From a virus, in the IMG/VR virus record IMGVR_UViG_3300048839_001570, positions 1 through 54,978 of that record: a stretch of 54,978 bases of DNA; one strand, written 5' to 3'. Made by a program: the position numbers and the translations under genes. The notes under the pieces were generated by a model. That model saw only the letters and a list, made by a program, of their open reading frames with translations. It ran no database searches and had not been told where the DNA came from. Below, in pieces: positions 5,791 through 51,599 of the stretch (its first letter is position 1; every line of letters begins with the position of its first letter).

Positions 5791-8778
5791 CTACGGAGCC
5801 AGGGCAATCGTGAACGCGACCCACGTATCCGTCGCCATCGTGCCGAAGGCGGCCGGGTCGTAGGTCGCCACCTCGTCGAACCGCATCGCCGCCGCCACGC
5901 TCGCGCCGCCGGTCCCGGCCGCAACCTGCGGGTAGAAGTCGTAGCAGCCGATTGGCCCGGCGCCCGGGACCGCCGTGCTGTCCGCCCCCATCACCGCGAG
6001 CCAGAGGTACTTCGCGCTGCCGCCCGAGGGCGAGAAGCTGGGGGCGTTGGCGGTCGTGCTCGATCCCGTCGCGGACGTGCTGACCTGGATGGAAGACGCG
6101 CCGTGGAAGCTCATGGCGATGTGCGACGACTGCTCCGAGGCCGAGGTCGTCAGGGTGAGCGTGTCGCCCTCCTCCGCGATCTTCGAGACGATGGTGAGCC
6201 GGTTGTTGGAGCCGTTCGCTGCGCTCGCGTTGATGGTCCAGCCCGAGGAAGACGCCCCGGTGTTGATCGAAACCGTCGCACTGCCGTCGCTGGAGAGCCC
6301 GATTACCATGAGTTCCCCGGGCACGATGAGCGGCAGCGTGATCGGGTGCGACGTGGTGTTCGAGGCCCCGGTGCGCCCGCGCGCCATCTCGCGCAAGCTC
6401 GGGAAGCCGTACATGTTCGGCATCCGCATCCAGCGCGGCTCGACCGTCGAGAAGGTCGTATTCGGCGTGTAGACCGACGGGCCGTCGTCCTCGAAGGCCG
6501 CCGGGTCCGAGACGAAGTAGCCTGGCGCATCCATCCCGCTCAGGTAGCGGTTGTTGATGACGTCGTTCCCGACCGTCGTCTCGTTCCAGTAATCGCTGTC
6601 GCCGTCGTAGAATTCGTGCGAGCTTTCGCAGACCGGGGCGGGCACGCCGAAGCGGTAGTAGTTCGTATCCCCGGTGTGGAAGACGATGTTTTCCTCGACC
6701 AGCACCTCGTCCGCGTTGTCGAGATAGATCTGGATCGAATAGTTATCCCACACGATGTTTTCGCGCGCGGTCGTGCCGGTGGTGGAGAGGATGCCGATCC
6801 CCTCGCCCCAATTCTCGTGCACGAGGTTCTTCTCGATCAGGCTGTCGCCGCGGAAGTCGCCGAAGATGCCCCGGCCCCACCCGCTCTGCCCGACCGCGCC
6901 GGCCGTCCAGTCCGCGTTCCGGTTCTCGACCGTGTTGTGGTGGATCCGGTTGTAGCGGACCGTCCAGCCCGCGCCGCGGGTCTGTCCGCCGCCGGTCGAG
7001 TAGTCCATGGAGAAGGCGCCGTCGAGGAAGTAGCAGAACTCGTTCCCCTCCACGACGAGGTTCTGGGCATTGTCGCCGTAGAAGCCGAAGCGACAGCCGC
7101 CGTCGTCGATGAACTTGAAACCGCGGATTTCGATGTTGTCGGCGGTGCGGAGCTGGAGCATGTCCGCGCCGGTCAGGCTGCGCGCGTCGAACGTCACCTG
7201 TTCGCCCGGGTAGGCGATCACCTTGGTCTTGTTCGATGAGTTGGAGCCCGACCATCCGCTGATCGACTGCGCGCTCGTGTAGGTGCCCTTGCGGACCGCC
7301 ACCACGTCGCCGGCCGAGACGGAGGTTCCCGAGAACGCGGCGTCGCTCGAGACGGTCTTGTTCACCGCGTAGACGCAGACGGGGATCGTCACGCTGTCCG
7401 AGCCGAGCCCGTTTTCGGCCGTGACGGTGATGGTGGTCCAGTCGAAGGCGCTCGTGGTGGGCACCGAGACGACGCCCGTAGACGAGTTGATCGTGATGCC
7501 GGTGGAGCCGACGCCAGAGACGGAGAACTCCAGCTCGTCGCCGTCGAACATCGAGGCCGTGGCGAAGGTCTGCGTGCCCATGCCGGTCACGTAGTAGACC
7601 GCGGGCATGTAGGAGAGGTAGGCCGCGGGCGCCTCGGTCGCGCCGACCTGGTACGGCGTCTGGTTGAACTCGGAAATGTCGAAGGTGCCGTCTGTCGAGA
7701 GCCAATCGCCGCAGGTAATGTTCACGTACATGTCGGTGATCGCGAAGCTGATCGCCGTCGTGCTCGCGTAGTTGGTCCAGTTCTCGCCGTCCGTGGACCA
7801 GTCCATGTAGACCGTCCCGTTGTCCTCGTGGATGCGCTGGTAGGCATGGGTCGCCGGGGCGTAGGTGACGTTCTTGCGGAGCTGCGTGTTGACGCCGCCG
7901 ATCTGGTAGTCCGCAATGAGCGTTCCGTCGTCGATGCCGAAGCGGATGCGGTCGGCGCCGCTCGTGCCCTGCCGCTCTAGCGAGATGATGCCGTTCTTGC
8001 TCTCCAGCGCGTTCGTGCGTGTGAAGCCGAAGCGCCAGGCAACGACCGAGTTGGTCAGGTCCCATGTGCTCACAGCCGAAGCCATGCCGCCGGCATAGTC
8101 GTTCCGGCAGGGAATTTTCGCGATGCCGCCCGAGACGGTGACGGTGCCCGTGTAGCCGCTCGTGCTCCATTTCGCGCCGTCAAGGCTCGAGCCGGGGAAC
8201 AGGTCGGTGAAGTTCTGGAAGGCGTCGGCGGGGATCTCGGGGGCGGCCTCGGCGGAGATCGTGGGCGCCTGCGCCGCGATGGCGAGCGCCGCGGCGGGAA
8301 CCTGTACGCTGCCGCCCGTAGCAACGGCGGGCACGGGAGCGGCTACGGCGAGCGAGGCAACCGGGACCTGTACGCTGCCGCCCGTCGCGATCGCGGGAAG
8401 CGGAGCAGCGATGGCGAGAGCTGCGACCGGAACCTGCGCGCTTGCGCCAGTCGCCACCGCAGGTGACGGAGCGGCAACGGTGAGGGCGGCCGTGGGAACG
8501 GCGATGTCCGCCGGCGCGACGGGCCGGAGAGCGATCACCTGGCCGGTGCCGTCGTCGAACTCATAGTCGACGCCGTTCGTCAGGGCGACGGTAGGCCCCG
8601 TGGACCTGAACCAGTCCGACGAGCCGACCTCCCGGTAGAAGATCGCCCGCGGCTGCACGCCGTCGTCGAACTCGTAGGTCTCGCCGGCGTCGAGCCCGGA
8701 GATCTGGAACGGCGCCTCGCCGACAACCCTCAGCCACGGGCCGGCGCTGCCCTGCACCCGGTAGAAGACACTACGCAT
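5791..8778 (-). CDS. Tailspike with parallel beta-helix, probable receptor-binding or depolymerase protein
   Basis: 995 residues. Two N-terminal copies of a roughly 40-residue module (YRVQGS..YEFDDG and YREVGS..YEFDDG) are followed by four Ala/Val/Pro-rich repeats of about 22 residues (residues ~95-185), a lectin-like region, an Ig/cadherin-like domain and a right-handed beta-helix with repeated N-I-V/N-E-F/N-R-I turns (~520-740), then a beta-rich C-terminal domain. Such helices in phage tails often bind or cleave surface polysaccharide; no catalytic residues can be assigned. Last late gene of the prophage. Confidence 0.75.
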   Translation of the reverse strand: MRSVFYRVQGSAGPWLRVVGEAPFQISGLDAGETYEFDDGVQPRAIFYREVGSSDWFRSTGPTVALTNGVDYEFDDGTGQVIALRPVAPADIAVPTAALTVAAPSPAVATGASAQVPVAALAIAAPLPAIATGGSVQVPVASLAVAAPVPAVATGGSVQVPAAALAIAAQAPTISAEAAPEIPADAFQNFTDLFPGSSLDGAKWSTSGYTGTVTVSGGIAKIPCRNDYAGGMASAVSTWDLTNSVVAWRFGFTRTNALESKNGIISLERQGTSGADRIRFGIDDGTLIADYQIGGVNTQLRKNVTYAPATHAYQRIHEDNGTVYMDWSTDGENWTNYASTTAISFAITDMYVNITCGDWLSTDGTFDISEFNQTPYQVGATEAPAAYLSYMPAVYYVTGMGTQTFATASMFDGDELEFSVSGVGSTGITINSSTGVVSVPTTSAFDWTTITVTAENGLGSDSVTIPVCVYAVNKTVSSDAAFSGTSVSAGDVVAVRKGTYTSAQSISGWSGSNSSNKTKVIAYPGEQVTFDARSLTGADMLQLRTADNIEIRGFKFIDDGGCRFGFYGDNAQNLVVEGNEFCYFLDGAFSMDYSTGGGQTRGAGWTVRYNRIHHNTVENRNADWTAGAVGQSGWGRGIFGDFRGDSLIEKNLVHENWGEGIGILSTTGTTARENIVWDNYSIQIYLDNADEVLVEENIVFHTGDTNYYRFGVPAPVCESSHEFYDGDSDYWNETTVGNDVINNRYLSGMDAPGYFVSDPAAFEDDGPSVYTPNTTFSTVEPRWMRMPNMYGFPSLREMARGRTGASNTTSHPITLPLIVPGELMVIGLSSDGSATVSINTGASSSGWTINASAANGSNNRLTIVSKIAEEGDTLTLTTSASEQSSHIAMSFHGASSIQVSTSATGSSTTANAPSFSPSGGSAKYLWLAVMGADSTAVPGAGPIGCYDFYPQVAAGTGGASVAAAMRFDEVATYDPAAFGTMATDTWVAFTIALAP

Positions 8779-9895: not shown

Positions 9896-9975
9896 CGGCC
9901 GGTCTCCTGCAGGACGAGCCGCCACCAGGCGGCCCAGGGGTTGTGGGTGAGGGCGTAGGCCCACACGGCGATCAC
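9892..9975 (-). CDS. Tiny hydrophobic ORF (27 aa) between amidase and holin-like gene
   Basis: GTG start in a GTGA overlap with the amidase stop, and its own TGA overlaps the ATG of the holin-like gene. Sequence is Trp-rich and amphipathic (VWAYALTHNPWAAWWRLVLQ). The exact fit between two coupled genes argues that it is translated, either as a membrane microprotein or simply as a coupling leader. Confidence 0.45.
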   Translation of the reverse strand: MIAVWAYALTHNPWAAWWRLVLQETGR

Positions 9976-10817
9976 GCGAGCGCCTCGATCTCGGCCGCTA
10001 GGCGGCGCAGGTCGGAGGCGATGCGCCGCGCGGGCGACGGCGTCGTGGGCGCGTGAGGCGGCGGGCCGTCGACGATGTCGACGTGGTCGCCGTGCACCCA
10101 GACGGTGAAGCCCGCCGGGGTCTCGACCCGCAGCCATGCGCCGTCGTGGCCGACGACCTCGAGGGAGGTCCCGCGCGGAATCGTGCCCACGATCTCGCCG
10201 CCGGGTGCCCTACGGGCGTTGAGCAGCGCGGGCCTGACGGTAGCGATGGCGCCGGCCGGCACCGGTGCGTTCGGGTTGCTGGTCACTGGCTGGGGTTCGG
10301 TCACGACGACGCCTCCGATCTGGGCCCGGATCCAGTCCCCGACGGCGTGCGCGCCGACCAGGTCGGGACGGAAGGGCAGGATGGTGAAGTCCCACTTCGC
10401 CCGCTGCGGCACGCCGAGCGTGCTCTCGACCTCCGCGTGCGACAGGGTGGTGCTGCGGCTGATCGGGATCTCGTAGCGCTCGCTCAGAACCCGGGTGAGC
10501 AGGCAGAGCGCCTCGACCTGCCGCTCGAGCATGGGCCACCGTCCGAGGTCGAGCGGGCGTTCCCGCGCGCCGCCCATGCAGCACAGCGCGACGCTGATCG
10601 CGTCGGTGTTGGCGTTGAGGGTGTGGGCGGAATAGCCGGGCTTGAGCGTCCCGCTGTTGGCGGCGATCGAAGGAATGCCGCGAACGAATTCACCCTCTCC
10701 CGTGGTCAGCAGGTGGTAGGCGCGGAGATCCGTGGCGTTGGGGACATAGGCCCCAGCGTTCCAGTGCCAATGGATCCGGCGAATGGGCACTCGCGGCGTC
10801 CATTCCGAGGGGATCAT
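9972..10817 (-). CDS. Endolysin: N-acetylmuramoyl-L-alanine amidase with SH3-like domain
   Basis: 281 residues. The N-terminal part has an amidase_2/PGRP pattern: HWHWNAG (residues 17-23) supplies a zinc-ligand region, and SHAEVES near 127 a second; NTDAISVALCCMG is the core strand. Residues about 195-255 form a bacterial SH3-type wall-binding domain (ARRAPGGEIVGTIPRGTSLEVV). It cleaves the amide bond between MurNAc and the stem peptide. No signal peptide is seen, so release needs the holin. Confidence 0.88.
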   Translation of the reverse strand: MIPSEWTPRVPIRRIHWHWNAGAYVPNATDLRAYHLLTTGEGEFVRGIPSIAANSGTLKPGYSAHTLNANTDAISVALCCMGGARERPLDLGRWPMLERQVEALCLLTRVLSERYEIPISRSTTLSHAEVESTLGVPQRAKWDFTILPFRPDLVGAHAVGDWIRAQIGGVVVTEPQPVTSNPNAPVPAGAIATVRPALLNARRAPGGEIVGTIPRGTSLEVVGHDGAWLRVETPAGFTVWVHGDHVDIVDGPPPHAPTTPSPARRIASDLRRLAAEIEALA

Positions 10818-25234: not shown

Positions 25235-26526
25235 CAGGCGGCCTCGCTGACGGTGGCCGAGGTGCCGTCCCGCTCGACCGCGAGCGGCGGCAGGGAGGCG
25301 AGGTTGACGACGGTGACGACGCCATCCCCTCCGGCGAGGACGGTGGTGCCCACCACCGGCGCGCGGGCGGCGACGGAGAGGGAGGACACAGGCGCCTGGA
25401 TGGCCGCACCGGACGCGACAGCCGGGGCTGCGGCGGCGACGGCAAGGGCGGCGGACGGCAGCGCGAGGCTCGCTCCGCCGCCCACGGAGGGCTCGGGAGC
25501 GGCGAGGGTGACAGAAGCCGCCGGCACGGCCACGACCACGCCGGTCGCGATCTCCGGAGCGAGGGCTTCCACCGAAACCGTCGCGGACGGCACCTCGATG
25601 ACGCGGCCTCCGCCGACCAGCGGAGTTTCCGCCGCGACGGTCACCTCCGCGGCCGGCACCGCGATCACGGCGCCCGTGAGGACGGCCGGCGCGAGAGCGG
25701 TGACGGAGAGGTCGGCGGCCGGCAGCTGCACGGCCGCACCGGCCGAGATCGTGGGCGCGGCGGCGGCGACGGAGATCTCCGCTGGCGAGATCGAGATCGC
25801 TTCGGCGGTGTCGATGGCCGGCGGATGAGAGGACACGGCCAGCGCGACGGAGGGAACGGCAACGGCCGCGCCGGACGCGACCACGGGAGCCTCGGCCGCC
25901 ACGACCAGGGTTGCCACGTCCGGCGCGATGGTGGCCGCCGTTGCCACCGCAGGCGCGAGGGCGGCGACATTGAGGTTCGCGGACGGAATCTCCACGAGCC
26001 GGCCGCCGCCGACGAGTGGGGCGAGGGGCGTGACGTCGATCGCCGCGGGCGGCACCGCGACCGCGGCGCCCGCAGCGACCGTCGGGGCCGCCGCGGCGAC
26101 GGCGATCGATGCCACGCCGGACGCAAGCGACGCGCCGGAGGAAGCCGCAGGTGCAAGCCCCTGCACGCCCAGAGCGGCGGCAGGAATCTGCAGGTCCACG
26201 AGGCCGATCACCGGGCGCTCGCCGCGCACGAACAGGCGGCCCGCCGGAACGCCCACGATCGCGCCGAGGCCGGGTGGCGGCAGGAAGGACGCCTCGACGA
26301 TCAGCGTCCCGCGCCATTCGAGGACGCGGTTGCCCGCGGACGCCCGGGCGCTCAGGTCCCACGTCCCCTCGCCGGTGATCACGCCCGGGGCGAACCCGCC
26401 CTCCGGGGCGACGAGCGGCGCGCCTGACGGCGGCATGACGGCGACGGCAACGTTCTCGAGGAGATCGCCCTCCGGCGTGCGGGCGCGCACGCGAAGGCTG
26501 TCACCGGCGTGCAGGACCCTGATCAC
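25234..26526 (-). CDS. Protein of about 12 tandem 22-residue repeats
   Basis: 430 residues. Residues 1-~130 form a small beta domain (SLRVRARTPEGDLLENVAV). From ~150 to the end runs a tandem array whose unit is approximately A-P-x-V-x-x-G-A-x-V-x-V-P-x-A-x-x-x-V-A (22 residues, about 12 copies). The same unit occurs four times in the tailspike at 5791-8778. A short-turn beta solenoid is likely. It lies between tail tip genes, where lambda has no equivalent. Confidence 0.65.
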   Translation of the reverse strand: MIRVLHAGDSLRVRARTPEGDLLENVAVAVMPPSGAPLVAPEGGFAPGVITGEGTWDLSARASAGNRVLEWRGTLIVEASFLPPPGLGAIVGVPAGRLFVRGERPVIGLVDLQIPAAALGVQGLAPAASSGASLASGVASIAVAAAAPTVAAGAAVAVPPAAIDVTPLAPLVGGGRLVEIPSANLNVAALAPAVATAATIAPDVATLVVAAEAPVVASGAAVAVPSVALAVSSHPPAIDTAEAISISPAEISVAAAAPTISAGAAVQLPAADLSVTALAPAVLTGAVIAVPAAEVTVAAETPLVGGGRVIEVPSATVSVEALAPEIATGVVVAVPAASVTLAAPEPSVGGGASLALPSAALAVAAAAPAVASGAAIQAPVSSLSVAARAPVVGTTVLAGGDGVVTVVNLASLPPLAVERDGTSATVSEAA

Positions 26527-38997: not shown

Positions 38998-39220
38998 CGA
39001 AGGTCACCCGGAAGGCGCGCCGCCGGCGGGTGCCCGTGAGGCGCGCCACCTGGTCGCGAAGCTCGGCCACATAGGCGCGCAGGTTGCCGACGTTGGCCAT
39101 GGAGTAGCTGACCTTTCGGCCATCGTACTCGACGCTGACCGCCCGTTGCTGGGTCACCACCTGGTGCAGCGCCGTCTCGGCCTCGGCGAGCCGGGCCTGC
39201 AGGGTCACGAGATCCGTCAT
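38990..39220 (-). CDS. Head-tail joining protein, gpW-like
   Basis: 76 residues (lambda gpW 68): helix TLQARLAEAETALHQVVT, a strand pair EYDGRKVSYSM, helix NLRAYVAELRDQVARL, basic end. ATG at 39220 overlaps the terminase stop. Plugs the portal after packaging. Confidence 0.85.
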   Translation of the reverse strand: MTDLVTLQARLAEAETALHQVVTQQRAVSVEYDGRKVSYSMANVGNLRAYVAELRDQVARLTGTRRRRAFRVTFGG

Positions 39221-41205
39221 GGCATCAGCTCTGATGGGCGAGGCCTGCGGGCAGGCTCGGGTTTCGGGGTGGCCTCGGCAGCCGGCGCTGCGATGAGCGG
39301 GGCGTCGAACAGTTCCGGTTGCTCGTCGACAGGTGCGACGCCGCGCACCGCCTCGAGTGCATCCCACTGGCCGTCGGTCCACGAGGTCCAGCCCTTCCTC
39401 CGGGCTGCAGCCTCGGCGTAGAGGTAGCCGTCGAGCACCTCGTTGCGGCGCGTCGGCTCGACCAGGTGCCACTGGCTCGTGATGATGCCGGAGACCTGGC
39501 GCTTCAGCACCCGGACCTCAGCCGTCACCTGGCGGTAGAACTCGTCCGGCATCCCCTTCGGGAAGGCCACGAAGCCCCTCGCCCCGGGATCCTCGACGGC
39601 CAGCCGGCCGTAGAAGTCCGCCTTGAGCTGGCTCACGTTGACGATGTAGCCCTGCCGGCGGCCTCGCTTCTTCACCTTGCCGTCCCGTCGACGCTCGGTC
39701 ATCGGCGTCAGGACGGCGCCGTTCTGGGACGACGAGCCCTTCAGGACGATCACCCGGTCGCGCGGATGCCGCATCGCCCAGGACCACACCGCGTCGGTGT
39801 AGGCCGACCCGTCGATTCCGAGGGCGTCGATCTTCACCGGCAACCGAAGCTCGGTCTTCCACTCCGCCCGGAGCAGCGCGTCGAGGTGCGGCCAGCTCGA
39901 CTCGTCCCCGATGAAGTGCGGGATGACGACGTGGTCGACCACCCAGCTCTGCCGGTTGCGGCCCCAGGCCGTCAGCACCACCTCGAGGCGGTCGCCCTGG
40001 CAGTCCACTCCAGCCGTCAGCATGACGCCCCGGGCCGGCAGGATTTCAGGCGGCAGGTAGACCCCGCTCTCGTCGTGCTCGACGCGGTCGCGCAGCCGCG
40101 TCCAGTCCATGCCGCCCGAGGCCTGCTCGTACTCGAGGCCGAGGACGTCGTTGAAGAACGTCTGCTCGGTCTCCGCCTCGACCGACTGGCTCAGCCGCGC
40201 CTCGCTGTCCCCGCTGAGGCTCGCCGTGGTCCAGCCCATCATGCGAGCGTAGTCGACGGCGATCGAGGCCCAGTCGCGCTGCGGGGCGTAGGCGCGCCAC
40301 AGGAAGAACCCTGGATGATCCCCGCGCGGGTTCTGCGGCACCCAGCGCCCGGCCTTGACCATGCGCTCCTTGTCGCCGTGCCGGATCGCCGCGCCGCAGG
40401 CCTCGCAGGTGAAGTGGGCCGCGTGGAGGCGCTCGGGGTCGATCGAGCGCTTGAAGTTCTCCCAGGTCAGCGGCGCCTCGTGCCCGCAGCTGGGGCAGGG
40501 CACCAGGTAGAGCCTCTGGTCGCTGCGGGCATAGGCCCGGCTGACCCGGCAGGTCCCCTTGATCAGGGGGGTGGAGACCCGCAGGATCTTCGCATCCTCG
40601 AAGCCGGAGGCGCGGGATTCGGCGAGCGCCTCCGGGTCGCCCTTGTCTGTCATCTCGAACTTGGCGAGATCGTCCATCACCACCAGGCGCCGGGTGGTGC
40701 CGGTGAGGTCGGACGGCGATCCCGCCGAAGCGACCTTGAGCGAGCCGTTCCGCGCCAGCGTCTCCTGGTTGAGGCGCGTGTCCCGGTTCTCGCCGCGCCC
40801 GTCGCCGAAGAGCCCGAGCAGCTCCGGCGCCTGCCGGCGCATGGGCATCCACTTGTTGTCGACCCACTCGAGCGCGGACTGCATCGTCGGATGCACCACC
40901 AGTGCATCGAGCGGCGCGTAGGAGAACCACGCCCCGAGCGTCGGGTTGATCACCGAGACCGTCTTGCCCCACTGGGCCGATCCCTTGACCGTCACCTCCC
41001 GGGACGGGTGTTCGGGAGAGAGGACCTCATGGATCTCCCGCAGGAACGGGAACCGCTCGATGTTGAACGGCCCCGGCATGGGCGAGCGGTCGTCGAAGAC
41101 CACGTTCTCGACGCACCAGCGCGTGATGTCCGGCGGAGGCGGCGGGCGCATCCCCTCGGCGATGGCGTAGGCCACCACCGCCTCGGCCGACGACAGGAAC
41201 CCCAT
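39217..41205 (-). CDS. Terminase large subunit, gpA-like
   Basis: 662 residues (lambda gpA 641). ATPase: KGSAQWGKT Walker A at 74-82 and LVVMDDLAKF Walker B near 170. A zinc-binding pair CPSCGH and CEACG follows near 237 and 270. The nuclease domain starts at AGVDCQGDRLEVV and includes GIDGSAYTDAV. ATG at 41205 shares a base with the upstream stop. GpA-type terminases cut at cos sites, so a cos phage is expected. Confidence 0.94.
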   Translation of the reverse strand: MGFLSSAEAVVAYAIAEGMRPPPPPDITRWCVENVVFDDRSPMPGPFNIERFPFLREIHEVLSPEHPSREVTVKGSAQWGKTVSVINPTLGAWFSYAPLDALVVHPTMQSALEWVDNKWMPMRRQAPELLGLFGDGRGENRDTRLNQETLARNGSLKVASAGSPSDLTGTTRRLVVMDDLAKFEMTDKGDPEALAESRASGFEDAKILRVSTPLIKGTCRVSRAYARSDQRLYLVPCPSCGHEAPLTWENFKRSIDPERLHAAHFTCEACGAAIRHGDKERMVKAGRWVPQNPRGDHPGFFLWRAYAPQRDWASIAVDYARMMGWTTASLSGDSEARLSQSVEAETEQTFFNDVLGLEYEQASGGMDWTRLRDRVEHDESGVYLPPEILPARGVMLTAGVDCQGDRLEVVLTAWGRNRQSWVVDHVVIPHFIGDESSWPHLDALLRAEWKTELRLPVKIDALGIDGSAYTDAVWSWAMRHPRDRVIVLKGSSSQNGAVLTPMTERRRDGKVKKRGRRQGYIVNVSQLKADFYGRLAVEDPGARGFVAFPKGMPDEFYRQVTAEVRVLKRQVSGIITSQWHLVEPTRRNEVLDGYLYAEAAARRKGWTSWTDGQWDALEAVRGVAPVDEQPELFDAPLIAAPAAEATPKPEPARRPRPSELMP

Positions 41206-41846
41206 CAGATGTCGGCCGCGCTCTCGGCCTGGCTCATCGTCGCCGCGGCGCCGGCCGCCTGCGCCAGATCCGCGCGCACCCCCCGGTGCGCACGCCACTG
41301 GTCGAGCATCACCTGCCGCACCGCGCGGGCGTCGACGTCGAACCGGTCGGCCAGGACGCGGGACGTGTCGCGGATGTAGGTCGCCACCTCCGAGACCTCC
41401 TGGCCGATCTGCCGCCGCACCTGGCGGGCCACTTCGTCGGCGAGGACGAACATACCCTCGGCCTCGGCGTTGAGGCGCCGCATCCGGCGGGCCTCCTCCT
41501 GCGCCTTCTCCGTCCGCGCCCGCTCGTAGTCGCTGAGCGAAGTCGGCGCGGCCGCCGAAGCTCCGGACGCCGCCGCCGGGGTCATGTCCGAGGGCGGCTG
41601 GGCGCCGCCCGCACCAGCTGCGAGGATCTCCTGGCGCGCCCGCTCGCTTCGGGCGCCGTTTCCGAGACGCTGGCCGATGTCGAGGCGTCGCCCCAGCAGC
41701 TCGGCCGACTTGATCAGGTCGAACCGACGGTCGCGACCCGCGCCGGAGAACGCCCCATCGAGCTTCCCCTCGCTGACCAGCTGGCTGATGCGTCCCGGTG
41801 TGAGCTCGAGCGCCTCCGCGAGCTCCGAGGCTTTCAGCATCTTCAT
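41205..41846 (-). CDS. Terminase small subunit, Nu1-like
   Basis: 213 residues. N-terminal winged-helix of the Nu1/MerR style (MLKASELAEALELTPGRIS, then DLIKSAELLG) for binding cos DNA, an Ala/Ser-rich linker, and a coiled C-terminal domain (TEKAQEEARRMRRLNAEAEG) that contacts the large subunit. ATG at 41840 is an alternative start. Confidence 0.85.
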   Translation of the reverse strand: MKMLKASELAEALELTPGRISQLVSEGKLDGAFSGAGRDRRFDLIKSAELLGRRLDIGQRLGNGARSERARQEILAAGAGGAQPPSDMTPAAASGASAAAPTSLSDYERARTEKAQEEARRMRRLNAEAEGMFVLADEVARQVRRQIGQEVSEVATYIRDTSRVLADRFDVDARAVRQVMLDQWRAHRGVRADLAQAAGAAATMSQAESAADI

Positions 41847-42082: not shown

Positions 42083-42784
42083 TCAACCCCCTTTCTGACG
42101 CCTCTGATCCCAGTGCTCGATGACCGCCATCCGGTCGAGTGCATCGAGCAGCCCGTCGGTCAGGTGGGCGACGTAGCGCGCTTGCCTCCCCCAGCCGTGC
42201 GCCTTGAGCACGTCGCGGATCTCGAGGCCCGAGAGGCAGACCATGTCGACCAGGACGCGCACCGTGATCTGCCGCCGTCGCCCCCGCCGGGAGCGCGGGA
42301 CGAGGCACGCTTCCGTCCCGATCGCGAACTGGAACCCGCGCAGCTCCTCGACCAGGCCGACGCGGAACACCGCGCCACCATCCGACACCCGCAGCGAGCC
42401 ACCGCCGGGTTCCATGCCCGAGACCGGAACGGCTCCGATCAGCTCGTGCACGTGGGCATAGCGCTGAGCCGCCCAGCGCCGGCCGTCCTTCACCGAGAGG
42501 GAGCGGATCGCCTTGGGCAGTCTCACTGCCGTGCGGTAGCCGAGGGGCGTGACCCGCGCCACCGTCTCGCCCGCCTGTTCCTCGCTGATCTCCTCGAGGG
42601 CGACTGGCCGCTGGGCCGGACCGGCAGGCGACCGCGCCCCCTCGCCCTGCCCGATGCCCTGGCTCGCGCGGGCCTTTGCCTTCTGCACCTCGACCAGCCA
42701 GCCCTCGACGGCGATCCTTGCCCGGGCGTGCCGCCCCAGCCTCTCAACATCTTGTGCCTGCACTGCCTGTCCCGACGAGATCAT
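42083..42784 (-). CDS. Unknown protein upstream of terminase, possible late regulator
   Basis: 233 residues. The C-terminal half (VRVLVDMVCLSGLEIRDVL followed by HGWGRQARYV) looks like a helical DNA-binding domain of the DUF6456 kind; the N-terminus is an unstructured Ala/Gly-rich stretch. Its position between replication genes and terminase is that of lambda Q, so a late activator or antiterminator is plausible but unproven. AGGAA precedes the ATG by 3-4 bases. Its 5' leader contains four TCGCTCCA copies. Confidence 0.6.
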   Translation of the reverse strand: MISSGQAVQAQDVERLGRHARARIAVEGWLVEVQKAKARASQGIGQGEGARSPAGPAQRPVALEEISEEQAGETVARVTPLGYRTAVRLPKAIRSLSVKDGRRWAAQRYAHVHELIGAVPVSGMEPGGGSLRVSDGGAVFRVGLVEELRGFQFAIGTEACLVPRSRRGRRRQITVRVLVDMVCLSGLEIRDVLKAHGWGRQARYVAHLTDGLLDALDRMAVIEHWDQRRQKGG

Positions 42785-42815
42785 GTTTCCTGCTCTGCCT
42801 TCGATGGAGGATGGA

Positions 42816-43140
42816 TGGAGCGAGTGGAGCGAGAATGGAGCGAGAATGGAGCGAAATCTGTCTGGAGATCTCGTTTACAACCCGGCTAACCCACTGCCAA
42901 ATCTTCGCTTTCTTGTTACTTTTCGATGTTAGTGGAGTGAGTGGAGGATAATTCCCCTATGACGCACAAGAAACATGAAGAGGGGTAACCCCCCTACTTC
43001 GCGCGCGCGCGCGTACGTCAACCGGGAATTTCGCTCCACTCGCTCCACTCGCTCCATTGCCCCTTGATTTCATTGGCGTATTCGGCCCCGGACCCCGATT
43101 TTCGCTCCATTTTCGCTCCATTCTCGCTCCACTCGCTCCA
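42816..43140. repeat. Array of 11 TGGAGCGA octamers forming a large inverted repeat
   Basis: Plus-strand TGGAGCGA at 42816, 42825, 42836, 42847; reverse-complement TCGCTCCA at 43031, 43040, 43049 and at 43102, 43113, 43124, 43133. Start-to-start steps are only 9 or 11, so copies fall on about the same DNA face. The first and third clusters are mirror images (40 of 41 positions match). Degenerate copies are at 42933 and 42942. The whole gene-free stretch 42785-43150 is otherwise AT-richer DNA. Candidate iterons of the phage origin or a multi-site late control region. Confidence 0.75.
42872..42900 (-). promoter_or_regulatory. Possible late promoter inside the octamer array
   Basis: Minus strand: TTGGCA (42900-42895), 17-base spacer, TAAACG (42877-42872). 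Transcription would start near 42865 and run through cluster one into the putative late regulator at 42784. The -10 match is weak (3 of 6). Confidence 0.35.
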
Positions 43141-43150
43141 CTGAAACAGG

Positions 43151-43411
43151 CTACGGGGTGTGTGAGGGATCGTCGGACGGAGCCGCGACGACGGGATCGG
43201 CCCGCAGGGTGCGGGCCTGAAACGTGCTCACGATGCGGCGCATCACCGCGATCTGGCGGGCAGATGGCCGCCACGGACCGGCTCGGGACCTCGCGACGAT
43301 CGAGGCGCAGAACACCCGCTCCCATGCGCTCAGGCCCTCGGCTCGCACCACGATCGGCATCCAGTGCAGCAGCCGGTCGATCTTGGCAGAGGGCGGCGCG
43401 CGCGTCGTCAC
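43151..43411 (-). CDS. Small conserved phage protein (86 aa)
   Basis: 86 residues from GTG at 43411 (GTGA overlap). Core RLLHWMPIVVRAEGLSAWE, WRPSARQIAVMRRIV is a pattern I recognise from replication regions of alphaproteobacterial phages, without known function. It is the last gene before the octamer array. Confidence 0.65.
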   Translation of the reverse strand: MTTRAPPSAKIDRLLHWMPIVVRAEGLSAWERVFCASIVARSRAGPWRPSARQIAVMRRIVSTFQARTLRADPVVAAPSDDPSHTP

Positions 43412-43934: not shown

Positions 43935-44158
43935 GGGTTTGCCCCCCTCACATGCGCCAGGCCCTCTTCGGTGATCTCCCACAGCGTCGTCTGGCGGCGG
44001 TGGACGATGGGACCGGGCTTGCCGCGGACCAGACCGTGCTGGGCAAGGCGGACGCAGACCTGGGACTGGATCACGCGGCGGGTGACGGGAAGCGGGTGGG
44101 AGACGGCAGCGAGCGCCGTCAGGGCGCGTGATTCGGCGGGGGTCAGGTCGAGCAGCAT
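43931..44158 (-). CDS. Winged-helix-like small protein (75 aa)
   Basis: 75 residues; helices LTPAESRALTALAAV and VTRRVIQSQVCVRLAQHGLV followed by a wing-like strand pair (TTLWEITEEGLAHV) give a MarR-like winged-helix pattern. Likely an early-operon regulator. Confidence 0.62.
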   Translation of the reverse strand: MLLDLTPAESRALTALAAVSHPLPVTRRVIQSQVCVRLAQHGLVRGKPGPIVHRRQTTLWEITEEGLAHVRGANP

Positions 44159-44796
44159 CAGGAAAGCTCCATTAGCAGCTTGCGAACCAGCGTGCGGGCG
44201 TAGTCCTGCCAGTCTCGGGCGACGACGACGAAGGCGAGCGGACCGCGGGAGACGGTCTCGCGGAAATAGGGCTCGTATGCGCCACCTACCGAGATCGCGT
44301 TGACCGTGATGTCGTCGGGAATCGTGATCGCCTCGGGGCGAAGCTCGCGGCGGCCCGAGTTGTCGGGCCCGTCGCCGGAGATGTCGAGCACGCGGCGCGT
44401 GCAGTCGGTGTGCTGGGCGAGCTCGGCCGCACCGAAGGCTATGGCGGCGCCGAGCGCGGTGTGACCGCCTCGAGGCGGACGCGGGGCGGCAAGTACGGCC
44501 GCGGCGATGGCCTCGACATCGGCCAGCGACCGCACCTTGGTCCACGGCACGATCACGACCGGATCCCGGCTCGACCACTCGTAGACGTGGACCCGCGCGC
44601 CGATGAGTCGCTGCCAGACCGCGTCGTGCAGAAGTGCCCTCGCCGTGCCCTCGCGCTGGGCCTTGTGCTCGTCGGCGTCAATCGAATCCGACACGTCGAT
44701 GCCGAGACTGAGAGCCGTGTGGCACGTGGCGGCGGCATGACTGGCGGCGATGAACACGGCCGCGGCGGCGAGGGCAACGGTGCGCACAGCCATCAC
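44158..44796 (-). CDS. Secreted DUF1194 / von Willebrand A-like protein
   Basis: 212 residues. N-terminal signal peptide (TVALAAAAVFIAASHAAA), then a VWA-like domain with a MIDAS-type DVSDS (residues ~34-38), GGHTALGAAIAFGAAEL and VLDISGDGPDN. DUF1194 proteins are usually chromosomal in Rhodobacterales; function is unknown. Coupled by ATGA to the helicase gene, so it is expressed in the early phage operon. A secreted metal-binding adhesion fold in that place is unexpected. Confidence 0.82.
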   Translation of the reverse strand: MMAVRTVALAAAAVFIAASHAAATCHTALSLGIDVSDSIDADEHKAQREGTARALLHDAVWQRLIGARVHVYEWSSRDPVVIVPWTKVRSLADVEAIAAAVLAAPRPPRGGHTALGAAIAFGAAELAQHTDCTRRVLDISGDGPDNSGRRELRPEAITIPDDITVNAISVGGAYEPYFRETVSRGPLAFVVVARDWQDYARTLVRKLLMELS

Positions 44797-46589
44797 ACCA
44801 GGTCCCTCGCATCAGGCGGCAGGGGCGCGGGATCGCCGCCACGCTTGCCGCCCTGCCCCTCACGGCCTCGCCACTCCGAAAGCCGGGCCGCCATGGCATC
44901 GGTGAGGCGCAGGCCACCGTAGCCGTTCGCCGTGGCCGACTTCCGCGGCGTGAAGGTCGCGCCGTCGACGCGGAACACGTTGGCCTTCTCGGAAAGGCGC
45001 AGCTGGATCGAGCGGTTGCCCCACGGCTGTCCGCCCTGGTCGCGCTGGTAGACCTGGAACGCCTCGACCAGGTCGCGCGAGAGCACGAAGTCGGCCGCGT
45101 CGCCGGTGATCTTGCAGGCATCGAGCAGGAACGTGCGGACCGGGTCGGAATCGTCGCGAAACTGCTCCGTGGCCTGCAGCACGCCTTCGGGCTCTCGCAG
45201 GCCCCCGGCGAGGAAGTCGAGCGTCCCAGCGAGGAGCCAGTTCAGCACGCCCGACCGCTCCTCCCAGAGCTTCTGGGGCAGGAGCGGATCGACCGCGTCC
45301 TTCGGGATCTGCTGATCGAACGGCACGAGGAGAATGCGCCGCCAGATCCCGTCATCGGTGCCCCGCACGTTCGGCTTGTGGTTGCCCGAGATCGTCAGCT
45401 TGAACACCGGCTCGATCTCGACGAACTCCTCCCGCATCTTGCGGATCAGGATGGGCTCGCCGCCGGTCAGGAGCTTGATGATCGCTTCCTTGAAGCGCAG
45501 GCCCTCCTCCGGCTCCGAGGCGCGCACCATGCGCGCGCCGGGCACGCGCACGAGGTCCGGGGTGGCATCCGAGCCCTTGCGCTGTTCCGTGCCGGTCAGC
45601 GTCTCGATCGGCAGGCTTGTCGCGTACTCGCCCATCATGCGGGCGATGAGATCGACCAGGGTGGACTTCCCGTTCCGGCCCGTGCCGTGGAAGAACACCA
45701 GCTTCTGCTCGGACGTGAGCCCCGTGAGCGTGTAGCCGAACCACCGCTGCAGGAACGCCCGCATGGCCGGGTCCGGCTGGATGTCGGCGAGGAAGCGGTC
45801 GAAGGTCGGACAGGTGGCGGCAGGATCGTACACCACCGGCATGGACTTGGTGATGAGGTCCTCGCGAACCTGCTCACGCGTCGTGACCGCGTAGACCCGC
45901 CGGGGCCCCTCCTCGGCCGACCATGCGTCGAGATCGTCCTCGGCGGTCGCCTCGACCAGCTCGAGCGTCACCTCGGCCGTGTTGATCACCATGGGCGCGC
46001 GGTTGAGGTCCGCGAGGGTGCGCTCGCGATAAGGCTCGGCTTCCTTGAGCATGTTGGTGATCGGACCGGTATTGCCCGCGCTCTTCGCGTGCCGCAGGTG
46101 CTTCGCCCGCTTGTCGGCCAGGCGCTTGCGGATGTCGGCCGCGGCATCGTGAAGCTCGATCAGCCGGCGCAGCTCGACCTTGTCGTCCTCGGTAGGGTCC
46201 TTCTTGACCCGCAGCCGGTTGAGGAAGGTGCGGCTCTCCTCCGCTGCCTGGACGATGCCGGCCTCTTCCGGATCGTATCCGAGTTCGAAGGCTTCGCGCT
46301 TGATGAAGTGGCTGATGCGGTGCGCGCGGCGGCGCACGGCCATGCCGTCGAAGTCCTGCGCCCAGCGGTGGCCGTCCCAGGCGAACCACCCCATGCGCGG
46401 CACGAACATCAGGTCGTCGCCGTGGTAGATCACCACCCGCTGGCCGTTCCCGAAATCGTTGAGCGGCAGCGCACCTGCCTTGCGCAGGGTCTCCCGGACG
46501 CCCGATTCCTCGTCAGGCGGCGGGCCCTCGCCGGAGTAGTCGCGCGCCGCGGCGATCTCGTCTTCGTTCAAGGCCTTGTCCCAGTTCAT
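44793..46589 (-). CDS. Phage replicative helicase, D5/P4-type
   Basis: 598 residues from ATG at 46589 (ATGA overlap). D5_N-like region about 60-250, then the SF3 helicase core: Walker A FFHGTGRNGKST (299-310), RMVRASEPEEG, KLTISGNHKPNVRGTDDGIWRR (sensor/arginine finger region). A wHTH-like end follows. P4-family proteins usually have an N-terminal prim-pol; none is visible, so priming must come from the host or another gene. Confidence 0.9.
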   Translation of the reverse strand: MNWDKALNEDEIAAARDYSGEGPPPDEESGVRETLRKAGALPLNDFGNGQRVVIYHGDDLMFVPRMGWFAWDGHRWAQDFDGMAVRRRAHRISHFIKREAFELGYDPEEAGIVQAAEESRTFLNRLRVKKDPTEDDKVELRRLIELHDAAADIRKRLADKRAKHLRHAKSAGNTGPITNMLKEAEPYRERTLADLNRAPMVINTAEVTLELVEATAEDDLDAWSAEEGPRRVYAVTTREQVREDLITKSMPVVYDPAATCPTFDRFLADIQPDPAMRAFLQRWFGYTLTGLTSEQKLVFFHGTGRNGKSTLVDLIARMMGEYATSLPIETLTGTEQRKGSDATPDLVRVPGARMVRASEPEEGLRFKEAIIKLLTGGEPILIRKMREEFVEIEPVFKLTISGNHKPNVRGTDDGIWRRILLVPFDQQIPKDAVDPLLPQKLWEERSGVLNWLLAGTLDFLAGGLREPEGVLQATEQFRDDSDPVRTFLLDACKITGDAADFVLSRDLVEAFQVYQRDQGGQPWGNRSIQLRLSEKANVFRVDGATFTPRKSATANGYGGLRLTDAMAARLSEWRGREGQGGKRGGDPAPLPPDARDLV

Positions 46590-46996
46590 CGCGTCGCGCC
46601 CTGCAGTACCCGGCGCTGCGCCGCGGCAAGGAAGTCGGCCCGGTCCTTCGCCGATAGGGCGAGGAAGCAGGCGAGTAGCACGTGCTTGCGGACGTGCGGG
46701 CTTGCCCACTCCGCCCACTGGCGCGCATCCCAGCCGACGCGCCCGAGCGCCGGCGCGGGCATTGCCGCGAGATCGGCGAGCGCGGCGTCCATGAGCACGA
46801 TGGCATCGTCGGCCGCGGCGATGCGGATCGCGTAGCCCAGCAGCGCCTGCCGGTCGGCCCGCGTCAGGATCTGCTCCCAGACCGCGGACGCGCCCTCCCA
46901 GTCATCCTCGCGCAGCGCACGCGTGAGCTCGAGGCCCGCCATGGCCGTGCGGTTCGCCTCGATCTCCTCCGGCGTCATTTCGGCCTCGCCGGTCAT
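46586..46996 (-). CDS. Helical hypothetical protein (136 aa)
   Basis: 136 residues, almost entirely helical and rich in Ala (MTPEEIEANRTAMAGLELT, DDWEGASAVWEQILTRAD). Coupled to the helicase gene by ATGA, so a replication accessory such as a loader is possible; no homology seen. Confidence 0.62.
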   Translation of the reverse strand: MTGEAEMTPEEIEANRTAMAGLELTRALREDDWEGASAVWEQILTRADRQALLGYAIRIAAADDAIVLMDAALADLAAMPAPALGRVGWDARQWAEWASPHVRKHVLLACFLALSAKDRADFLAAAQRRVLQGATR

Positions 46997-47265
46997 CGCG
47001 CAGGCTCGCTGCCGAGTTCGCAGCCGATGGCGGCGTAGCCGGCGATGTCCACCCAGCTGTCGGCGTGCCCCGGGTTTCCCCGGGCACGGGCGACCTTGAA
47101 CAGCACCATCAGTCGCGCGACGTCGATCGCCGTGATCGGGATGCCGAGGTCGGCCGACCAGAGCGCGGCTATCGCGCCGAAGCTGTCCTCCGCGCGGCCA
47201 TGGGTCGCTGCGCGATCACGGGTGACCGCACCTTCGGCGGTGACGAGACACTCCGACCGCTGCAT
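46993..47265 (-). CDS. DUF6378 protein
   Basis: 90 residues; DRAATHGRAEDSFGAIAALW, ITAIDVARLMVLFKVAR and DSWVDIAGYAAIG match the DUF6378 domain, common in phages near nucleotide-metabolism and replication genes. Role unknown; the fold may resemble MazG-type helices (inference). Confidence 0.8.
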   Translation of the reverse strand: MQRSECLVTAEGAVTRDRAATHGRAEDSFGAIAALWSADLGIPITAIDVARLMVLFKVARARGNPGHADSWVDIAGYAAIGCELGSEPAR

Positions 47266-47269
47266 CTGC

Positions 47270-47458
47270 TCAGCGCTCCGAGACGAGGCGCAGATGGGGG
47301 CGCGCCGGCTCGCGGCGGATCGGCATGGCGACGGATTCGCCCGCCTCGTGGCTGTAGCCCGCGGCGCTCGAATCCGGGCGCAAGCACGGGAGGCACATCC
47401 AAACGGTGGTTGCGACCCCGAGGCCGCCGACGAAGAAGCCCGCGAGGAATGCCAGCAT
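47270..47458 (-). CDS. Small N-terminally anchored membrane protein (62 aa)
   Basis: One N-terminal TM helix with a Gly-rich face (LAFLAGFFVGGLGVATTVW) followed by CLPCL and a basic, disordered tail. Found from ATG at 47458; a superinfection or early membrane protein by analogy only. Confidence 0.58.
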   Translation of the reverse strand: MLAFLAGFFVGGLGVATTVWMCLPCLRPDSSAAGYSHEAGESVAMPIRREPARPHLRLVSER

Positions 47459-47460
47459 GC

Positions 47461-48324
47461 TCAGTGCTCCACGAAGACGATGGGACGGTCGGTCGACCAG
47501 CAGACCCCGCAGGAACCGCAGTGCCGGGCGTCGTCCCGACCGGCCATGGCGCTCAGCTGCTCGGGGCAGACTATGGCGTCGCCGATGGTCTTGCGCTCGG
47601 TCGGGAAATCGATGGTGAAAGCGCCCCACCTGCCGGTGCGACCGGAGTGCCGGACATTGAACCGGCGGGACGGCAGAAGCTGGTCACGCTCGCAGGCGAT
47701 GGCCGCGCCGATCTCGGTATTGGGACCCCAGGCGGTGAACCCGAAGACGTAGAGGCCCCGGTGCCGCTGGACGAGCGAGGCCCAGAACCGGACGTAGTCG
47801 ACGCTGTAGAAGTCGCCGAGGACGTGAAGCCGGACAAGCACGCGGCGGTGGCGGGCACACAGATCGGCGACCTCGGCCTCGATCCGAGCCTCGAGGTCAG
47901 GCCCGTGCCGCCAGCGCCGCGAGAACTGCATGGCGTTGCCGTAGCAGGTGCGCCACATGCTGCAGGCCCGGGGGCACGTCGCGCGCTCCTCGAGGGTGAG
48001 CGTCACGATGTGCGCGCCGCGCAGCCAGCCGACCAGGACGTCGCCGCCGATCTTCGAGTTCGACGCGCCGTCCTTGAGCACCGTCTCGGTCGGCAGCGGA
48101 TCGAACACTCGCGTCGGGAAGATCGTCCCCGTCGACTCCGGCGAGGCGACCGCGGCTGCCAGACCGGACGGCACCGGGGCGGTCTTGAACCGCCGGCGGT
48201 CCCGGACGCGCTCGATCTGCGCGATGCGCTGGCGCGCCTTGCGGGCGTCGATCGTCTCGCCGGGGGGCGGCTCCTCGCCCTTGCGCGGGCGGCCACGGCG
48301 GCGCGGGGCAGCGGACACGGACAC
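47461..48324 (-). CDS. GP88-like cysteine-rich protein
   Basis: 287 residues from GTG at 48324. After a basic N-terminus (RRRGRPRKGEE) the core contains NSKIGGDVLVGWLRGAH and a Cys cluster CPRACSMWRTCYG (~118-130), then RVLVRLHVLGDFYSVDYV, and a second cluster CGSCGVCW near the end. This is the layout of the actinophage GP88 family; the clusters suggest iron-sulfur or zinc binding. Function unknown. Confidence 0.7.
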   Translation of the reverse strand: MSVSAAPRRRGRPRKGEEPPPGETIDARKARQRIAQIERVRDRRRFKTAPVPSGLAAAVASPESTGTIFPTRVFDPLPTETVLKDGASNSKIGGDVLVGWLRGAHIVTLTLEERATCPRACSMWRTCYGNAMQFSRRWRHGPDLEARIEAEVADLCARHRRVLVRLHVLGDFYSVDYVRFWASLVQRHRGLYVFGFTAWGPNTEIGAAIACERDQLLPSRRFNVRHSGRTGRWGAFTIDFPTERKTIGDAIVCPEQLSAMAGRDDARHCGSCGVCWSTDRPIVFVEH

Positions 48325-48339
48325 CGGCGGGGCTCCCGC

Positions 48340-49167
48340 TCAGGCCGCGACGGAGGCGGCGTCGGCCGCCCGCGTCTTGAGGCGGATGAGCAGCTGGCGC
48401 TGCTGGTTCAGGCCCTTCTCCGGGAGCAGCTCGTTCCAGCGCTCGAGCGCGAACTCCCGGGTGATCGAGAGCCGGTTGCAGGCGAGCGGCAGGCCGCTCT
48501 CGATGATCGACCGCGCCAGCTCGTAGTCGCGCTCCGGCGTCCAGAACCCTGCCTTCGGCTCTACGGCGTCCTGCACGGCGGCGGGAGCAGGGGTGTCGAG
48601 CACAGGCTCGACAGGGGGTGCGGCTTCAGGCTCCGCCGCGCCGTCCCCAATGAGATAAGGGGCAAGCGCCTGCTCAGACCACGCCTCGATCTGCACCGGC
48701 TCCGGATCGACCGCGGGTTCCGGCGCGTCGGCCGATTCCGCCACGTCCGGCTCCGGCGCGCGATGCGGCGCGAACGCGCCCATGGCCCGGCGATGCGCCA
48801 TCACCTTGCCCTGGAGCCGCTGCGGCTTGATCCCGGCCGCGCGGGCCACGTCCCGCACCCGCGCGCCGCAGTCCACCACCTGGGCGACGAGGGCGGGCCA
48901 GTCCGGCTCTGGCTCGAGTTCGGCCAGGCCTGCATCCTCGCAAGTGCCGGCCGGAGAGGCAGGCGACGGCGATCGCTCCTCCCCGGCCGGCGCCGACGGT
49001 GACCCCGCCGCCGGCTGCTCTGCCGGGGAGGAGGAAGCGGGGACCTCCGCGCACACGGGCATCGGTGCGGGCGCCTCGCCGCTGCTCTCGTAGGCATCGA
49101 GCAGCGCACGGAGCGCCACGCGGGTGAACGGCTGCGACAGGTCCAGGCGAAGGCTGATCTCGGTCAT
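48340..49167 (-). CDS. HTH-containing phage protein with acidic linker
   Basis: 275 residues. N-terminal helices, a Pro/Ala/Glu-rich linker, an HTH-like ARVRDVARAAGIKPQRLQG (~95-115), a second acidic linker, then a Myb/GcrA-like C-terminal helix set starting WTPERDYELARSIIESGLP. Probably a DNA-binding early regulator or replication initiator; it lies two genes from the GP88-like gene. Confidence 0.6.
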   Translation of the reverse strand: MTEISLRLDLSQPFTRVALRALLDAYESSGEAPAPMPVCAEVPASSSPAEQPAAGSPSAPAGEERSPSPASPAGTCEDAGLAELEPEPDWPALVAQVVDCGARVRDVARAAGIKPQRLQGKVMAHRRAMGAFAPHRAPEPDVAESADAPEPAVDPEPVQIEAWSEQALAPYLIGDGAAEPEAAPPVEPVLDTPAPAAVQDAVEPKAGFWTPERDYELARSIIESGLPLACNRLSITREFALERWNELLPEKGLNQQRQLLIRLKTRAADAASVAA

Positions 49168-49661
49168 TCCCGCACCTGCTCCATGAAATAGCCGAAGCCC
49201 CGCACGTTCCGGATCCGGAAGCCCATGCGCTTCTCGGCGAGCTTGGCGTTGAGGCGGCAGACGATCACGTTGACCATCTTCTGCTGCGCCCACGAGTCCG
49301 GCACCCGGCGCCAGCTGACGACCGCGATGAGGCCGTCGTAGCTGATCGGGGACGGCATCCGCCGGTGCAGCGCGAACAGGATCGCGCCCTCCTGCGGCCT
49401 CAGGCTGATCCCGCGCTCGAGGAGAAGCCGCGACACCGCCGCCGGCAGCGTCGTGATCTGCTCGAGCGCGAAGACCAGGTGCTCGACCTGCTCCTCGAGC
49501 GGCAGGTGCGCGATCTCTTCCCGGAAGGACGGCCGGGACGGACGAGGGGGTGCAAGGGGGGGGGTGGGTGCTGCCCGCCCGGCCCGGCCGCCCATCGGGG
49601 AAGAGACGACCCCCGCGCCGCGGGGGCGCGGGGAAATGGCGCAGGGCAGGCGCGGCGTCAC
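49164..49661 (-). CDS. Orphan PhoB/OmpR-type winged-helix DNA-binding protein
   Basis: 165 residues from GTG at 49661, chosen for its GTGA overlap (ATG at 49595 is possible). The C-terminal ~85 residues show the response-regulator effector pattern: ISLRPQEGAILFALHRR, recognition helix NVIVCRLNAKLAEKRMG and wing RIRNVRGFGYFM. No receiver domain is present. Likely a phage transcription factor. Confidence 0.7.
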   Translation of the reverse strand: MTPRLPCAISPRPRGAGVVSSPMGGRAGRAAPTPPLAPPRPSRPSFREEIAHLPLEEQVEHLVFALEQITTLPAAVSRLLLERGISLRPQEGAILFALHRRMPSPISYDGLIAVVSWRRVPDSWAQQKMVNVIVCRLNAKLAEKRMGFRIRNVRGFGYFMEQVRE

Positions 49662-51504: not shown

Positions 51505-51599
51505 TCGCTCCACCCCTATACGATTTGACAACCATGGGATGCATAGCCGGCCGCGTCGCGAAGCGGCGCGGCGGCAGAAGTTACGCAGTTAATCCGCGC

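Follow-up and report, generated by a model that had tools for sequence, protein, structure and literature searches.

The SaPI Rep protein reads iterons located directly downstream of its own gene with its C-terminal domain, with two hexamers having been proposed (PMC7581432), and in PICI origins two sets of iterons flank an AT-rich core, the melting region, a layout that has been held to exist in 'no other known bacterial replicon' (PMC6092414). Equally, the alpha protein of P4 binds the repeats of its origin with a winged helix (PMC4234260), and the P4 crr region (NC_001609), located immediately 3' of the gene for the P4-type primase-helicase, is built from 'type 1' iterons, octamers that occur in either orientation and partly in steps of 9 bp. 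In the Streptococcus phage Sfi21 (NC_000872: 34487-34784), a non-coding origin of approximately 300 bp, which the record also names a phage inhibitory sequence, is annotated directly 3' of a putative primase gene and contains convergent repeat pairs with 8-bp steps around a core of approximately 70 bp.

Here, an array of octamers in a virus contig of a tailed phage is compared with these systems; the entire stretch of 54,978 bases is referred to as the window. The array is of the kind of P4 crr, the Sfi21 origin and the PICI origins, so that the claim of a preceding sequence-only reading that no described system has this arrangement was too strong. New are the organization as a dyad of 12 iterons, the core with a CG tract and the setting in a complete phage. 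In P4, in contrast, ori and crr are separate and approximately 5 kb apart, crr consists of two direct copies of 120 bp instead of one 12-iteron dyad, the octamer is GGTGAACA and no CG tract was seen in crr. The Sfi21 origin differs by fewer repeats, a AGTAACTA-type word and a core that is strongly AT-rich and lacks a CG tract. Likeness to the SaPI and PICI systems is seen in the origin position immediately 3' of rep and in the D5_N-type helicase of SaPI5 Rep (PMC6092414, PMC7581432), but the element in the window is a full phage with terminase, portal, protease, major head and tail genes rather than a satellite, and its core, which carries the CG tract, is only moderately AT-richer than the flanks instead of AT-rich.

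Organization of the array and its surroundings

The octamer TGGAGCGA is present in the array with 11 exact copies and one copy with a single mismatch. A recount bears out the exact copies as read before, with four on the plus strand (42816, 42825, 42836, 42847) and, on the minus strand, clusters of three (43031, 43040, 43049) and four (43102, 43113, 43124, 43133), spaced by steps of 9 and 11 bp. A fourth, degenerate cluster composed of TGGAGTGA with one mismatch and TGGAGGAT (Table 1) had, however, been overlooked beside these three, and with its presence the array becomes a dyad of 4 + 2 (degenerate) iterons, a core and 3 + 4 iterons, in which two iteron sets flank a central region as in the D5/P4-type iteron origins. 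The outer clusters, previously regarded as near-perfect mirror copies, do pair almost perfectly (41 nt, 98% complementary, spacer of 243 nt), but as reverse complements they constitute an inverted and not a mirror repeat.

In the whole window TGGAGCGA was counted 12 times versus 3.5 times expected, with a maximum of 8 in 100 shuffles, and the 325 bp from 42816 to 43140 contain 11 of the 12 copies, the sole other exact copy being located at 51505. Chance as the origin of the array is ruled out by these shuffle counts together with the position statistics in relatives given below. The AT content of the core is 43% versus 30% in its own flanks. The promoter scan found no sigma-70-like promoter in 42700-43300, where a promoter-like motif had been noted before; the same scan flagged the AGGGGGGTTACCCCTCT element as a terminator-like hairpin within the core that ends in a T-rich tail.

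Table 1. Features of the proposed replication origin and of the flanking genes in the window
Feature	Positions	Strand	Basis or remark
Gene X, putative protein without assigned function, next gene 3' of the proposed origin	42083..42784	-	
Outer distal iteron cluster, four TGGAGCGA	42816..42854	+	octamer positions, arm complementarity
Inner distal cluster, degenerate: TGGAGTGA at 42933, TGGAGGAT at 42942	42933..42949	+	aligned with inner iterons of relatives
Core of the proposed origin, flanked by the two inner iteron clusters	42950..43030 (computed as 42941-43030)	-	alignment and composition
AGGGGGGTTACCCCTCT element in the core	42979..42995	-	relatives often carry GGGGN1-6GGGG there
Alternating pyrimidine-purine tract CGCGCGCGCGCGCGTACGT	43000..43018	.	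type conserved in 42/47 relatives
Inner proximal iteron cluster, three TGGAGCGA, 9-bp steps	43031..43056	-	
Outer proximal iteron cluster, four TGGAGCGA	43102..43140	-	
D5/P4-type SF3 primase-helicase, proposed initiator	44793..46718	-	PF08706 E 1.8e-22; phrog_1156 E 3e-128
Helicase C-terminus (residues 544-623), predicted winged helix and proposed iteron reader	44850..45089	-	

The array has the replication module on one side and gene X/terS on the other. To its left, gene X is followed by terS (TerS 41205-41846) and terL (TerL 39217-41298), whose chromosomal relatives are found mostly in Rhodobacteraceae genomes; to its right, small ORFs and a DUF1194/VWA gene precede the primase-helicase gene at a distance of approximately 1.65 kb. 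Earlier, the array had been placed between replication genes and a putative late regulator. A Pfam scan of the gene X family gave no convincing family. Members of the gene X family have a variable N-terminus and a conserved C-terminal region and are located near terS or adjoining the origin in many related phages; the product is possibly a late regulator. A search for related loci with the gene X protein gave no matches, its relatives having surfaced through TerL and profiles, and tblastn of TerS in phages equally gave no match.

Recurrence of the array 3' of the helicase gene

When viral contigs were searched for exact TGGAGCGAGTGGAGCGA, eight were retrieved, each with one pair only, and none with an array. 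As the octamer itself is not conserved, the search for relatives was switched to the helicase, and six aligned helicases were used to fetch 80 viral loci plus Rhodobacteraceae loci. The helicase gene alone served to select the viral loci, of which 59 were non-redundant and testable. In 46 of them, the centre of the most repeat-dense stretch of 400 bp fell 0-600 bp 3' of the stop codon of the helicase, against an expected fraction of 0.05 (binomial p 6e-48). In several of the remaining loci the repeat-dense stretch is located farther 3', as in the window, where the array also lies 3' of the initiator gene, 1652-1969 bp from its stop codon with small genes in between; the array is likewise displaced in four further loci (L022, L095, L098 and L170), giving with the window a range of 1.6-2.0 kb.

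AmM-1, RcapNL, Pthi1 and RR1-A, which have the same helicase, carry arrays of other octamers after the helicase gene, for example GGGAGGCA in AmM-1 and GGGACGCA in RcapNL, and the words encountered across relatives include TGGAGCGA, GGAGGATA, GGGAGGCA, GGGCCTGA, GGGGCAGA, AGGGACGC and others. What recurs in other phages is hardly the octamer word, for which a search had been suggested, but the layout with other octamers after the helicase.

The array was absent from L023, L032, L052 and L058, relatives by terminase whose replication genes are different and which possess other repeats in or adjoining their presumed replication genes, and from RcRhea, a more distant relative of the helicase. Several helicase loci showed no array within 600 bp, as judged with a repeat detector that misses degenerate arrays, and the chromosomal loci L076-L093, with more distant helicases and a much weaker profile match, showed no clear arrays and were left out. 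In Amaricoccus solimangrovi (L023, 1-8000) a module swap is apparent, as terS, terL, portal and some upstream genes match the window, whereas other genes, with CGTGACAG repeats, stand in place of the helicase and the array. In an Actibacterium MAG (L026), a large ORF (265-2316) is immediately followed by a complex GGGACG array (2347-2623) that has a GCGCGCGC core; the ORF had no tblastn match to the window helicase and possibly represents another type of initiator on the same chassis.

The geometry of the arrays is shared. Towards the core point 492 of 566 sites, the steps peak at 9 bp (171), 20-22 bp (47) and 67/68 bp (26), and the median core length is 79 bp. An ideal dyad of 12 iterons is present in the Synechococcus phage Sc-Yong805-1 (36, 45, 66 / 132, 141, 150 / core / 258, 267, 276 / 343, 364, 373). 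Alternating purine-pyrimidine (CG-type) runs of at least 9 were found in the core of 42 of 47 loci versus 10% in the background, runs of at least 12 in 66% of the 47 loci versus 1.4%, and GGGGN1-6GGGG in 29 of them versus 2.3%. With a mean AT content of 45% versus 37% in the flanks (47 loci), the core is AT-richer but not AT-rich; within the origin region the AT content is highest in the distal third of the core and in the distal spacer.

The helicase and its C-terminal domain

The element encodes its own candidate initiator with a D5_N/SF3 domain (Table 1), to which the SaPI5 primase-helicase (7ola) is matched by profile (E 4.5e-10) and by fold. In the AlphaFold2 model of the window helicase (mean pLDDT 86), residues 544-623 are predicted to adopt a helix-helix-hairpin order that is winged-helix-like. 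Partial Mantel tests over 56 non-redundant loci, which are not fully corrected for ancestry so that shared ancestry can inflate the values, showed a correlation of the iteron with the C-terminus when the helicase core was held fixed (r=0.27, p=2e-4), but none with the core at a fixed C-terminus (r=-0.04, p=0.80). In the subset of 24 loci with gene X, the iteron correlates equally with the helicase core (0.64) and the C-terminus (0.63); the domain-specific signal therefore rests on the larger set. Based on the co-variation and the winged-helix model, we propose that the C-terminal domain of the initiator sets the specificity for the iteron. In RcapNL, Pthi1 and Pan4 the helicase gene is preceded by an independent gene for a P4-alpha-like or Toprim primase, for which no match was found among the ORFs scanned upstream of the window helicase (46586-49293, minus strand).

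Alternative explanations

Functions other than replication had been considered for the array from the beginning. With the array located approximately 1 kb upstream of terS, where the lambda-type cosB likewise has short repeated sites (R sites), the small terminase might bind the octamers beside a cos cut site; in RcapNL (L019) an annotated cohesive end (9957-9982) is indeed found within approximately 50 bp of the iteron array, and origin and packaging site are neighbours there. Nevertheless, such a packaging site is highly improbable, as across relatives the array travels with the primase-helicase gene and not with terS/terL. L023, the TerL and TerS of which are 73% and 50% identical, has another replication module and no array, whereas AmM-1 has the array and no TerL relative detected in the stretch examined. 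Among 74 array loci, a relative of the TerL family was present in only 19 and of TerS in 8 of the stretches examined, and the octamer follows the C-terminus of the helicase. On the other hand, the array might be an operator or a late promoter region to which the gene X product binds, the late switch of the sequence-only reading; this would agree with the X-family gene that follows the array in 35 of the 74 array loci and with a weak correlation of iteron and X that persists once the helicase C-terminus is controlled for (r 0.17, p 0.005). This reading is nonetheless very unlikely, as it is the primase-helicase rather than gene X that the array accompanies: 39 of the 74 array loci show no X gene, and X genes in phages devoid of the helicase have no upstream array (repeat score 2-20, median 15, versus a median of 41). 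Furthermore, within the 24-locus subset the octamer tracks the helicase C-terminus, with X held constant, more closely (0.53), the region contains no recognizable sigma-70-like promoter, and the AlphaFold model of X, poor outside the C-terminus, has no significant fold match.

A purely structural role, be it as a long hairpin or cruciform, as an RNA stem or as a stem-loop origin as in pRN1, could be read from the long complementary arms in the window, and in both pRN1 and phage BIP-1 a related replication protein has a stem-loop on its 3' side (PMC4234260). However, no more than 14 of 47 relatives have arms of at least 30 nt at 90% match, the median being 23 nt, and conserved is not a long stem 3' of the replication gene but the orientation and spacing of the octamers, including those of the inner clusters, which are degenerate on one side in the window. 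A stem formed by the outer clusters, whether DNA or RNA, is accordingly barely credible as the conserved function.

Proposed mode of initiation and implications

The assignment as origin iterons, which the sequence-only reading had offered as one guess among others, is strongly supported by the comparative evidence. The array is very probably the replication origin of the D5/P4-type SF3 helicase of the phage, with probably bidirectional theta replication, in which the C-terminal winged helix would bind the octamers and facing assemblies would melt the core. Arguing for the origin are the array itself, its recurrence 3' of the helicase with other octamers in the same geometry, the co-variation of octamer and C-terminus, the predicted winged helix and the homology to SaPI5; against it speak the distance to the helicase gene, the degenerate inner distal cluster, the relatives without array and a core that is not AT-rich.

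Modelled by analogy on SaPI Rep (PMC7581432) and P4 alpha (PMC4234260), initiation would start with binding of the octamers by the winged-helix domain of the helicase. As the iterons point inward on each side, two helicase assemblies, possibly hexamers, would face each other, one on each side of the core of approximately 80 bp, and ATP-driven melting of the core would result in the loading of two helicases, from which replication would proceed both ways. A wider generalization is rather doubtful, namely that one stereotyped origin chassis with up to 12 convergent iterons and a CG-tract core serves a large phage group, that iteron word and winged helix change together to give many mutually exclusive origin specificities, and that the CG tract, possibly forming Z-DNA under negative supercoiling, replaces the AT-rich element as trigger or boundary of melting.

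If the origin assignment is true, the replication origins of numerous phages and prophages, many of them with alphaproteobacterial hosts, become readable from sequence, and dozens of initiator domains, each naturally paired with its iteron word, would allow the recognition rules of SF3 initiator helicases to be read and tested. Equally, an origin layout once thought peculiar to phage satellites such as PICIs would seem to be common in complete phages, which bears on the acquisition of replicons by satellites, and the CG-tract core poses the concrete question of how such an origin opens. The records of RcapNL, Pthi1, AmM-1, RR1-A, Sc-Yong805-1 and Pan4 contain no origin annotation at the array region, and a description of such an origin in alphaproteobacterial phages was not found in the literature searched, with subscription papers outside this scope and an earlier description therefore possible.

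Two further observations concern the window at large. The DUF1194/von Willebrand A-like gene between the helicase gene and the origin (44158-44796, minus strand) encodes an apparent signal peptide and is odd cargo for a phage replication module. In the tail-gene region, repeats with a period of 66 nt and approximately 60-76% identity extend from 25356 to 26102, and similar ones are present at 8263-8460.
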